From positions 124,001 to 188,000 of the forward strand of contig JAFQRZ010000024.1 of assembly GCA_017409825.1 (NCBI GenBank): a DNA stretch of 64,000 nt, read 5' to 3'. Shown piece after piece: positions 1,568 to 56,115 of the stretch. The position numbers were made by a program, and so were the translations under genes. Every line of letters starts with the position of its first letter. The first letter of the stretch is position 1. The notes beneath the pieces were generated by a model that was not told the DNA's origin, ran no database searches, and saw only the letters and a list, made by a program, of their open reading frames with translations. The stretch is from Agathobacter sp. GTDB lineage: Bacteria > Bacillota > Clostridia > Lachnospirales > Lachnospiraceae.

Positions 1568-2365
1568 ATGACAGAGATTTTAATTGCTGCTGTAGCGGCT
1601 GCTGCGGTATGTGGTATTGTAGCTCTTCTCCTTGGACTTTTCCTCGGCTTCGCTGGTGAAGCGTTCAAAGTAGAAGTAGATCCTAAGGAAGAAGCAATCA
1701 ATGGTTGTCTTCCAGGAAATAACTGTGGTGGTTGTGGTTATGCAGGCTGTGCTGGTCTTGCTGCAGCTATTGCAAAAGGTGAGGCTCCTGTAAATCAGTG
1801 TCCTGTTGGTGGTGAAGCAGTTGCAAACCAGATTGCTGAAATCATGGGAGTAGAAGCGGGTGCTGGTGTGAAGAAAGTTGCTTTCGTAAAATGTGCTGGA
1901 ACCTGTGAAAAAGCAAAATCAGATTATGAATATACAGGTGTTGAAGACTGTGCTGCTATGGCATTTGTTCCAGGTGGTGGTCCAAAAACTTGTAGCTATG
2001 GATGTCTTGGATATGGCTCTTGTGTAAAAGCTTGTCCATTCGATGCTATCCATGTAGTAGATGGTGTGGCTGTAGTTGACAAAGATAAGTGTAAAGCTTG
2101 TAGCAAATGTATCGCTGCTTGTCCTAAGGGCCTTATTGAACTTGTTCCTTATGATGCAGCACACATCGTACAGTGTAGCTCAAAAGACAAAGGTAAAGCA
2201 GTAATGGATGCATGTTCAGTAGGTTGTATCGGTTGTGGACTTTGTGCAAAGAATTGTCCATCTGATGCAATTACTGTAGAAAACAACATTGCTCACATCG
2301 ATCAGGATAAGTGTACAGGTTGCGGTATCTGTGCTCAGAAATGTCCTAAGAAATGTATTTTATAA
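1568..2365 (+). CDS. rnfB: RnfB, polyferredoxin subunit of the Rnf complex
   Basis: 265 aa. It has an N-terminal membrane helix (about residues 3-27), then the RnfB-type four-cysteine cluster motif ([11 protein letters not shown] followed by a later Cys), then ferredoxin-like domains with several CxxCxxCxxxCP motifs, such as [12 protein letters not shown] near the C-terminus. It accepts electrons from reduced ferredoxin and passes them into the complex. It is the last gene of the operon in the normal clostridial order, and the constant-loop hairpin at 2390-2468 follows 24 bp after its stop. The SD is TTAGGAGGAAA. Confidence 0.95.
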
Positions 2366-2385: not shown

Positions 2386-2480
2386 CTACGAAAATCGGGG
2401 TTATAGATATTCATTTATCGCTGTACTTGCGTAAGGCTTCTAAATGAATATCTATAACCCCGATTTTCTTACTTTATGAA
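2386..2480. repeat. Constant-loop, variable-stem hairpin element, copy A
   Basis: A perfect 28-bp inverted repeat (2390-2417 with 2441-2468) encloses a 23-nt loop (2418-2440) that reads TCGCTGTACTTGCG then TAAGGCTTC. A second element at 21650-21722 has the same loop at 21 of 23 positions, the same loop length, the same outer TACGAA and inner TTTA stem ends and the same 3' flank TTCTTACTTTATG. The middle of its stem is a different sequence. Copy A follows rnfB and lies between convergent genes, so it may act as a terminator, although no clean U-run follows it. Confidence 0.85.
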
Positions 2481-19587: not shown

Positions 19588-19947
19588 ATGAAAGGCCAAA
19601 TGGAAAACCAATATGGTACAGTTTTGATTGATGAAAATGTAATTGCAACTTATGCAGGTTCAGTTGCTGTAGAATGCTTCGGTATTGTAGGTATGGCTGC
19701 AGTAAATGTTAAGGATGGACTTGTTAAATTATTAAAGAAAGAACACATTACACACGGTATCGAAGTGACTGTAGGTGCACATAACGAAATCACAATTGAT
19801 TTCCATGTTATTATTGCTTATGGTGTAGGTATCACAACAGTTTGTGACAACTTAATCGAAACCGTTAGATACAAAGTAGAACAGTTCACTGGTATGAAGG
19901 TCGGCAAGATCAATATCCATGTTGAAGGCGTGCGCGTAATTGACTAA
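19588..19947 (+). CDS. Asp23/Gls24 family envelope stress protein
   Basis: 119 aa, the YloU-type Asp23 family (YGTVLIDENVIATYAG, AVECFGIVGMAA, TIDFHVIIAYG). Members are linked to envelope homeostasis and, next to fakA, to fatty-acid kinase function. GGAGG at 19575 sets the ATG at 19588. The gene ends 13 bp before the likely fakA start. Confidence 0.9.
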   Translation: MKGQMENQYGTVLIDENVIATYAGSVAVECFGIVGMAAVNVKDGLVKLLKKEHITHGIEVTVGAHNEITIDFHVIIAYGVGITTVCDNLIETVRYKVEQFTGMKVGKINIHVEGVRVID

Positions 19948-19960
19948 GGAGGATGTCGAA

Positions 19961-21625
19961 GTGAAGATTACTAGTATTAATTCAAGTAAATTAGCGAAAA
20001 TGTTCCTTGCTGGTGCAGCGAACCTTGATGCAAAAAAAGAATGGATTAACGAATTAAACGTATTCCCTGTTCCAGACGGTGATACAGGTACAAATATGAC
20101 TATGACAATTATGTCAGCAGCGAGAGAAGTTAGTGGTCTTGGCGAAAATCCAGAGATGAAAGTGCTTGCAAAAGCGATTTCTTCTGGCTCTCTTCGTGGT
20201 GCAAGAGGTAACTCTGGTGTTATCCTTTCTCAGTTGTTTAGAGGCTTCTGCAAGGTTGTAGGCGAATATGATGAAGTAGACGTATGTGTACTTTGCGACG
20301 CAATGCAGAAAGCAGTAGAAACCGCTTACAAAGCAGTTATGAAACCAAAGGAAGGTACCATTCTTACTGTTGCAAAAGGTGCTGCAGATAAAGCATTAGA
20401 ATTAGTAGATGAAACAGATGACTTGGTATATTTCTGTGACGAAGTAATCAAACATGCAGACTATGTGCTTAGCCAGACTCCAGAAATGCTTCCTGTTTTG
20501 AAACAGGCTGGCGTTGTTGACTCAGGCGGACAGGGTCTTATGCAGGTATTAAAGGGAGCATACGATGCTTTGCTTGGTAAAGAAGTAGATTATTCTATCG
20601 ATGTACCTGCGGCTGGTAGCAGCTTCGTTAAAATTTCTGCTGAAACAGAAGCAGAAATCAAATTTGGATACTGTACAGAGTTTATTATCGTTTTGAATAA
20701 ACCTATGACAGATAAAGAAGAATTAGACTTCAAGGCATTCTTGGAATCCATCGGTGATTCCATCGTAGTGGTAGCGGACGATGAGGTTACAAAGACTCAC
20801 GTACATACCAATGATCCAGGTCTTGCCATCCAGAGAGCTCTTACTTATGGTTCTCTTAGCAAGATTAAGATTGACAATATGCGTGAAGAACATGAAGAAA
20901 AACTCATCAAAGAAGCTGAACAGCAGGCACTCGCTGCTGCAGAAGCTAAGGCTTCCGAACCACGTAAAGGAATGGGCTTCGTAGCAGTTTCTATTGGTGA
21001 AGGTATGAACGAAATCTTCCGTGGACTTGGGGTTGACTACATCATCGAAGGTGGTCAGACCATGAACCCAAGTACAGAAGATATGCTCAATGCAATCGAA
21101 AATGTAAATGCTGATACAGTATTTATTTTACCAAACAATAGCAATATTATCATGGCTGCAAACCAGGCTGCATCTATTGTAGATGATAAAGAAATCATCG
21201 TTATCCCTACAAAGACAGTTCCACAGGGAATTACAGCAGTTATCAATTTCTTGCCAGATGTTTCTGCAGAAGAAAATCAGGAAGCTATGGTAGAAGCTAT
21301 CTCTACTGTTAAGACAGGACAGGTAACATACGCTGTTCGTGATACAGAAATTGATGGTTTTGAAATTAAAGAAAATGACTACATGGGTATCGGCGACAAA
21401 TCTATCCTTGCTGTTGGTACAGATATGAACACTGTAACACTTCAGATGCTTGATAGAATGATTGATGAAGATACAGAAATGGTAAGCATTTACTTTGGTA
21501 GCGAATCTTCTGAAGATGATGCTGCAGTTATCGCAGAAGCAATCGAAGAAAAATATCCAGATGTTGATGTAGAAATCAACGATGGTGGACAGCCAATTTA
21601 CTATTATGTTATTTCGGTTGAATAA
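19961..21625 (+). CDS. fakA: DAK2-domain fatty acid kinase subunit FakA (YloV-like)
   Basis: 554 aa. N-terminal DhaL-like kinase domain: NELNVFPVPDGDTGTNM gives the Mg-ATP aspartates, then RGARGNSGVILSQ. A middle domain and a C-terminal EDD/DegV-related domain (MNPSTEDMLNAI, FILPNNSNIIMAANQA) follow. It phosphorylates fatty acids bound to FakB (DegV) proteins for phospholipid synthesis. AAGGAGG at 19946 points to GTG 19961 as start; an in-frame TTG at 19940 is less likely. In B. subtilis yloV lies close to recG; here a 7.7-kb island lies between them. Confidence 0.92.
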   Translation: MKITSINSSKLAKMFLAGAANLDAKKEWINELNVFPVPDGDTGTNMTMTIMSAAREVSGLGENPEMKVLAKAISSGSLRGARGNSGVILSQLFRGFCKVVGEYDEVDVCVLCDAMQKAVETAYKAVMKPKEGTILTVAKGAADKALELVDETDDLVYFCDEVIKHADYVLSQTPEMLPVLKQAGVVDSGGQGLMQVLKGAYDALLGKEVDYSIDVPAAGSSFVKISAETEAEIKFGYCTEFIIVLNKPMTDKEELDFKAFLESIGDSIVVVADDEVTKTHVHTNDPGLAIQRALTYGSLSKIKIDNMREEHEEKLIKEAEQQALAAAEAKASEPRKGMGFVAVSIGEGMNEIFRGLGVDYIIEGGQTMNPSTEDMLNAIENVNADTVFILPNNSNIIMAANQAASIVDDKEIIVIPTKTVPQGITAVINFLPDVSAEENQEAMVEAISTVKTGQVTYAVRDTEIDGFEIKENDYMGIGDKSILAVGTDMNTVTLQMLDRMIDEDTEMVSIYFGSESSEDDAAVIAEAIEEKYPDVDVEINDGGQPIYYYVISVE

Positions 21626-21645
21626 TTTATAGGTTTTACTAAATA

Positions 21646-21734
21646 ATACGAACTCCCACAATAAATACAATTTATCGCTGTATTGGCGTAAGGCTTCTAA
21701 ATTGTATTTATTGTGGGAGTTCTTACTTTATGGT
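21646..21734. repeat. Constant-loop, variable-stem hairpin element, copy B
   Basis: A perfect 25-bp inverted repeat (21650-21674 with 21698-21722) with a 23-nt loop (21675-21697) reading TCGCTGTATTGGCG then TAAGGCTTC. The loop differs from copy A (2418-2440) at two positions only. The ATACGAA entry and TTCTTACTTTATG exit are shared, but the stem core is unrelated. It follows the fakA stop by 24 bp, the same distance as copy A from rnfB, and marks the left end of the accessory island. Confidence 0.85.
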
Positions 21735-21744
21735 AAAATATAAA

Positions 21745-21838
21745 TTATTCAAGAAATGACATAATGGTAGAGTGTGATTTATTTAAGAAATGACGCGCGG
21801 AGAGGCTTTTATAGACTTTTGAGATGTTGACCGCGCGT
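21745..21838. repeat. Direct repeat pair plus long-range inverted repeat in the island leader
   Basis: A 16-nt direct repeat, TTATTCAAGAAATGAC (21745-21760) and TTATTTAAGAAATGAC (21779-21794), differs at one base and has a 34-bp period. The second copy runs into ACGCGCGG (21793-21800), whose complement CCGCGCGT is at 21831-21838. The GC-rich arms stand out in AT-rich surroundings. This could be a structured leader or an operator array for the next gene. Confidence 0.5.
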
Positions 21839-56018: not shown

Positions 56019-56049
56019 ACGAACTCTACTGACAATCGGTTGCGAATTT

Positions 56050-56115
56050 AACCTCTATGAAATAGAATGAGCATATAAGAAGTGCTTCTAAAATCTATTT
56101 CATGGAGGTTTTATT
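56050..56115 (+). promoter_or_regulatory. Hairpin terminator/SD-sequestering structure before the XRE membrane regulator
   Basis: A 17-bp stem with one G-U pair (56050-56066 with 56094-56110) holds the GGAGG ribosome site (56104-56108) of the gene starting at 56116 inside its 3' arm. The loop contains AGAAGTGCTTCT, a small inner hairpin. The stem is followed by TTATTATG, so it may also act as the his operon terminator. Confidence 0.7.

Follow-up and report, generated by a model that had tools for sequence, protein, structure and literature searches.

The window, a stretch of 64,000 nt from the 2.80-Mb genome of Agathobacter sp. (G000; Agathobacter is a genus of Lachnospiraceae), contains two long hairpins, each located just after a gene on the forward strand. 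The first follows a gene for a cysteine-rich protein of 265 aa, probably RnfB-like, and the second a gene for a protein of 561 aa. The features of the two loci are as follows.

1568..2365, forward strand: gene 5′ of hairpin 1, cysteine-rich, 265 aa
2378..2389, forward strand: base of hairpin 1, left part of the conserved internal loop, TCTATAAACTAC
2390..2417, forward strand: 28-nt left arm of hairpin 1; every base pairs with 2441-2468
2418..2440, forward strand: short tip of hairpin 1, 23-nt loop TCGCTGTACTTGCGTAAGGCTTC, conserved; the mini-stem TAY/RTA inside it covaries among copies
2441..2468, forward strand: right arm of hairpin 1, 28/28 pairs Watson-Crick
2469..2478, forward strand: base of hairpin 1, right part and T-rich tract, TTACTTTATG
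19940..21625, forward strand: gene 5′ of hairpin 2, 561 aa
21599..21639, forward strand: 3′-terminal part of the 561-aa gene together with the spacer, found again inverted 3′ of hairpin 2 (limits of a local alignment)
21650..21674, forward strand: 25-nt left arm of hairpin 2; every base pairs with 21698-21722
21675..21697, forward strand: conserved short tip of hairpin 2, TCGCTGTATTGGCGTAAGGCTTC
21698..21722, forward strand: right arm of hairpin 2, 25/25 pairs Watson-Crick
21733..21770, forward strand: decayed inverted copy of 21599-21639 in the downstream flank (approximate limits, by eye)

Re-examination of the two hairpins bore out their description in an earlier note on this DNA. Every base pair of both stems is Watson-Crick (28/28 and 25/25), the loops are identical at 21 of 23 positions, and the two copies have in common the inner (TTTA/TAAA) and outer (GAA/TTC) stem ends as well as the 3′ flank TTCTTACTTTATG. 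Each hairpin starts 24 nt past a stop codon, belonging to the ORFs at 1568-2365 and 19940-21625, respectively. They are the two longest of the seven inverted repeats in the window with arms of at least 20 nt lying no more than 200 nt apart. A separate, imperfect 22-nt inverted repeat, with arms 27 nt apart, is found at 56045-56115, directly 5′ of the start codon of an apparent helix-turn-helix gene (by eye). No Rfam family matches the element, which agrees with the suggestion that this might be a new RNA motif; when the window was compared with Rfam 15, nothing in it matched at gathering scores.

The search pattern suggested for finding further copies contained one N too many (N6) and missed both window copies. 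With N5 and up to three mismatches, 42 matches are found in the genome, as opposed to one for a reversed control pattern; 34 of the 42 have at most two mismatches, and eight have three. A stem filter dropped C7:23560 (one of these eight), a second half-copy at locus L016 and the duplicates of a block on contig C31. The final counts include L019 and three copies from the sister species Agathobacter sp. RGIG4703 (G007, 71% complete), all outside the first filter, and exclude C13:3148. This gives 37 distinct short-tip hairpins in G000 and 19 in G007; there are more copies both in this genome and in one close relative. The covariance model that had been proposed was built from the short form (R1), and only G000 and G007 match it among 60 genomes of the genus (E≤0.01, strict filters).

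Several copies are of interest in their own right. At L036 and L037 (C31:131559-138328 and C34:59091-65860 in G000), three short-tip hairpins each are found with identical spacing, all with a G-C loop variant and adjoining genes whose ends are similar by eye. These triplets, which are among the eight matches with three mismatches, look like one duplicated block. Loop positions 8 and 15 change jointly in the C31 and C34 copies, and the Y9-R14 loop pair covaries, which shows that the short loop is itself structured; the better fold is that of the reverse strand in 46 of 56 short-tip copies. At L016 (C15:112962-113023 in G000), the second loop half-copy comes directly after the first hairpin and is followed by the arm sequence of the sister species (L056). 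In L033, the loop is flipped against its flanks, as expected from spacer inversion (by eye). Finally, L006 and L055 are an orthologous copy placed after what looks like the end of an RNase P RNA gene, and the element may therefore also follow non-coding genes.

One hairpin base can carry at least two different tips, the short loop among them, a point that had escaped the first reading. The family is larger than first reported. The second tip is a structured stretch of ~95 nt. On the opposite strand to that of the first reading, it takes up a branched fold that combines a GNRA tetraloop with variable helices and, by eye, tandem G.A pairs. Its model (R2) gave 70 matches, which come down to 67 long tips, close relatives included and hence not independent, once three are set aside: L164, which is a palindromic match in reverse, L175, which repeats a locus, and L211, which is truncated. 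The tetraloop pattern is matched by 60 of the 67, all of them GNRA (GAAA, GAGA, GCAA or GGAA), and six of the remaining seven are GNRA by eye, some with altered closing pairs. Swapped strands of the tandem G.A pairs are seen in long tips (by eye). In minimum-energy folds, the median number of pairs in the helix around the long tip is 53, and the hit strand is the more stable one in 56/67 long tips versus 61/132 control windows.

Long tips are widespread in the family Lachnospiraceae. At E≤1, R2 gives 37 matches in G000, 22 in G007, seven in G055 (a further Agathobacter genome, 84% complete and 83% identical at one gene) and none in G011, some hairpins being counted on both strands. At E≤0.001, 103 of 397 sampled Lachnospiraceae genomes match, with at most nine candidates scored per genome, which makes copy numbers lower bounds, and with rough E-values. 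In a class-wide sample, 9/391 genomes match, all of them Lachnospiraceae. What appears to be an undescribed structured element is present in about a quarter of the sampled Lachnospiraceae genomes, and it is placed at gene ends.

The placement was determined for both forms. A plus-strand ORF ends before 42/52 short-tip copies, and a stop codon faces 64 of the 67 long tips, two being unresolved and one lying between two gene starts. The tract after the stem is T-rich but interrupted, with a median of 8 T in 16 nt (47 copies). The element resembles intrinsic (Rho-independent) terminators in following stop codons, in its T-rich tract and in having plain terminators at orthologous loci (by eye). 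In contrast to these, it has a long stem with outer arms, a large conserved tip, an imperfect T tract and no match in a consensus scan, which found nothing at either window hairpin under a definition that excludes loops of more than 8 nt, a result that slightly lowers our confidence in the reading favoured below. From its position, the element most likely ends or caps transcripts, often those of two convergent genes. Two further ideas were abandoned. In 42/52 short-tip copies, the strand that folds better is antisense to the gene beside it, but this rule was dropped because one-sided cases in the wider family split 9 versus 12. A promoter belonging to the better-folding strand found no support either, with two promoter-like sites in each of two stretches against shuffled means of 1.8 and 1.2.

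That pairing is retained while sequence varies is borne out across copies. The stems are mostly 24-30 bp long, in addition to the outer arms. Among the interior pairs of 52 copies, 1119/1134 are Watson-Crick, the others being 12 A.C and three G.U, with no other mismatch. All 15 are transitions, 12 of which become G.U on the reverse strand (p 0.018). Eleven terminator-like hairpins from the window, of which some are probably fortuitous folds within genes, served as a control; of their 163 pairs, 18 are G.U. The difference from the stems has a Fisher p of 2.5e-14 with three G.U and of 4.9e-9 if A.C is also counted as wobble of the other strand. In an alignment of 30 sequences (A1), two-sided changes that keep pairing occur at 26/32 pairs; one-sided changes keeping a standard pair are seen at two tip pairs only, once each, and several stem pairs are broken in single cells.

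These numbers bear on a reading in which selection is sufficient, an RNA or folded single strand having to be double-stranded and compensatory point mutations keeping both the arms and the gene-end pairing described below. Such selection would explain why the tips are conserved, with GNRA in 60/67 long ones and loop closing pairs that covary, why folding is strand-biased in short and long copies alike, and why the few mismatches are transitions that mostly become G.U on the reverse strand. It fits poorly with non-Watson-Crick pairs making up only ~1%, and with the changes seen between species, which are mostly two-sided and in which the lengths of both arms change together.

Comparison of orthologous loci provides the evidence for these changes. 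Fourteen of the 19 G007 short-tip copies are orthologous to G000 copies. In the inner stems of these 14 loci, 217 pairs are unchanged, 89 show two-sided Watson-Crick changes, five two-sided non-Watson-Crick changes and seven one-sided changes, in a gapless count from one genome per species in which shifted stretches inflate two-sided changes. The perfectly paired runs differ in length between the species (26/25, 26/29 and 26/28). At window hairpin 2, the G007 orthologue of the 19940-21625 gene is followed by the same hairpin, with a single two-sided base-pair change within the inner 24 pairs.

Other forms may stand at the same sites, and we compared 11 G000 loci with G007. At L003, L004, L011 and L026, G007 has an apparent plain terminator (by eye) instead of the hairpin element, and the sequences on the right become homologous again 575, 124, 37 and 150 nt beyond the G000 loop, respectively. 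At L009/L150, G007 keeps the stem base without the loop and inner stem, i.e., a loopless palindrome. At L002, L021 and L023, G007 has a long tip on the same hairpin base. Two of these (L023/L140 and L021/L136) are interior swap pairs. The interior exchanged at L023 is bordered left and right by sequence that is homologous as far as the hairpin base. At L021, the left-hand sequence is homologous up to the base, and on the right-hand side homology begins again 85 nt beyond the loop; at L002, close homology is confined to the left side. For L012, L020 and L032, G007 is without a comparable right side. In G055, the short tip is absent from the 15 orthologous sites examined, several of which are plain hairpins by eye. 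The site orthologous to window hairpin 1 (L145:1721-1768) is occupied by a perfect stem of 21 bp that is closed by a 6-nt loop and lacks the tip. This shows that perfect arms need no tip and that long perfect stems also occur outside the tip-bearing element.

The matching between the two sides extends beyond the hairpin. Many downstream flanks contain, in inverted and decayed form, a likeness of the end of the gene upstream; at L010 it extends to ~75 nt from the loop and at L002 to ~130 nt. In a test taking 35/36 G000 and 16/16 G007 copies, the match to the copy's own flank more than 45 nt from the loop exceeded the 99th percentile of matches to other copies' flanks in 17/35 and 6/16, respectively. 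Window hairpin 2 is among the good examples, its gene-end copy scoring 37, the best in its row (block score 50), while the match at window hairpin 1 is unconvincing, with a score of 23 and three higher ones in the row. A convincing gene-end copy is absent from about half of the copies tested in G000 and G007, and in the wider family such copies far from the tip are above control in only 3/32.

The resemblance follows the species. Flank and gene match better within than across species in 13/14 orthologous loci (p 0.001). In 15 confident blocks out of 28 examined, a count that still favours well-matching blocks, 31 of 38 diverged sites agree with the own gene, two with that of the other species and five with neither. 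The clearest case is L014/L074, where each downstream copy bears the base choices of its own species' gene end. A looser, mirrored per-site test gave 46/99 for own arms and 28/97 for exchanged arms, with a mean fraction of 0.42 for the arms of other loci; alignment bias makes it uninformative, and the stricter block count was used instead. The inverted copies include coding sequence with indels, which it is hard to see selection building unaided. Selection as the sole cause is the most credible of the alternatives to copying between arms, yet we consider it unlikely.

Contrary to what had been claimed, the stem cores are not wholly unrelated across the family. The arms mostly differ between copies, but a C-rich outer part is present in most copies and an inner end ATTCATTTA in many (by eye). 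The element base reads CGTA followed by various letters, with CGTAA in 4/7 G055 copies (by eye). The unlinked loci L004 and L024 have 18 nt in common, conserved base included, and arm sequence is also in common at the L140/L167 locus and L185 (by eye). Such sharing is what one would expect of an ordinary dispersed repeat or MITE whose arms, common by recent descent, later diverged, the gene-end match being due to chance or old duplication. This is very improbable given that arm differences mostly affect both strands together and that matches to own flanks exceed those to the flanks of other copies.

The earlier note had left the choice between strong selection and a mechanism copying one arm into the other. 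Copying fits better, on account of the ~99% Watson-Crick pairs, the mostly two-sided changes between orthologues, the joint change in arm length and the matching that runs into the upstream coding end. Selection on the tip is evident as well, and it is also implied by the strand-specific fold of the tip, which template switching leaves unexplained. On balance, we lean towards a family of dispersed, structured gene-end hairpins whose arms stay matched by arm-to-arm template switching. A conserved tip sits on a long, locus-specific stem just past the stop codon, at a position that in relatives may be taken by an ordinary terminator, and is presumably recognised or binds something. During DNA synthesis at the hairpin, template switching would cause the second arm to be re-synthesised from the first. 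The copied tract may at times overrun the hairpin, in which case the upstream gene end would be written inverted into the downstream flank, and the same process could flip the loop. Copying in the reverse direction would damage the gene and presumably be lost.

As for the suggestion of a new mobile hairpin, the element may be mobile: copies are dispersed and are present or absent at orthologous sites. The family has reached many loci, and the stem-plus-tip interior can be exchanged between the short-tip and long-tip forms, as seen on comparison of the species. These traits, interior swaps included, could also be the work of a dedicated enzyme copying the arm, either by self-primed reverse transcription of a terminated transcript or through a transposase acting on a folded strand, with insertion or homing rebuilding the arms from the target. 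The direction of copying, from gene end to downstream flank, is that expected of self-primed synthesis from the 3′ end of a terminated mRNA. No such partner was found, in a set where several genomes are incomplete: neither REP transposase nor reverse transcriptase tracks the family, and no element with an ORF of its own was noticed. RVT_1 is present in 7/15 high-copy versus 12/15 no-match genomes, which does not support reverse transcriptase as a universal partner; there are two in G000 and none in G007 and G055, both incomplete. The REP-transposase (RAYT) model NF047646 is unmatched in all three genomes and present in 7/15 high-copy versus 8/15 no-match genomes. An enzyme of this kind as the cause is thus quite unlikely. 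A bolder proposal, that the family is a novel type of mobile element made of structured RNA or ssDNA in which the tip alone is inherited and the arms are built and renewed by inverted copying of the target via a dedicated enzyme, strikes us as doubtful.

The gene-end hairpin family is apparently undescribed; a literature search, with most subscription papers and all preprints outside its reach, found no description of it. In Rfam, the element is unmatched in three long-tip loci (E≤5) and ten family loci (E≤1), the sole strong hit in the latter being Clostridiales-1 at L207, outside the element. The AbiF antitoxin RNA of C. difficile was considered and rejected: this motif lies before a toxin gene (PMC12373285), and its own Rfam entry, RF03085, did not match. 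One exact long-tip pattern had 0 matches in viral contigs, and one 90-nt tip had no match among plasmids and gave two partial, weak hits to phage records lacking annotation, which lends no support to a viral, plasmid or phage origin.

Among known systems, several are reminiscent of the element. REPs, as described in PMC8266576, are intergenic palindromes in many copies, with a strand-specific fold and some inverted neighbouring pairs, and REP/BIME with TnpA-REP (RAYT) are similar to the element in all these respects. However, the arms of the element are locus-specific and tens of bp long, its tip contains a GNRA loop and can be as long as ~95 nt, and rather than a short palindrome of common sequence with a GTAG tag, only pairing is kept among copies. 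Template switching has been shown to give rise to hairpins and to preserve them (PMC8794818), as well as to make arms uniform and invert spacers (PMC8604942); hairpins arising in this way (quasipalindrome correction) have in common with ours multi-base two-sided changes, perfect stems and loop inversion. Here, in contrast, there are dozens of dispersed loci in one genome, and the match enters the coding end of the neighbour and follows the species. MITEs and other miniature insertion elements are likewise dispersed, non-coding, equipped with inverted arms and present or absent between sister species, but the arms of the element are mostly not common to copies, varying on both sides. We know of no parent transposon for it. 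The targets of diversity-generating retroelements have an adjoining hairpin after the gene end, and the element is alike in its placement; the difference lies in the reverse transcriptase, missing in 8/15 high-copy genomes.

Compensatory point mutation and template switching are competing answers to the long-standing question of how long RNA stems stay perfectly paired while they change in sequence. With dozens of replicate stems, related species, few wobbles and coding sequence caught in copying, this family makes the question directly testable.

A minor observation concerns neighbouring elements. Long-tip elements are often found in inverted pairs ~200-300 bp apart, as at L160:1437-1816 and L162:1419-1889 and, in G000, at C4:14765/15027, C7:51133/51421 and C31:19660/19849. 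In L160 and L162, each paired element has its own stem, as if each neighbouring gene carried its own element.
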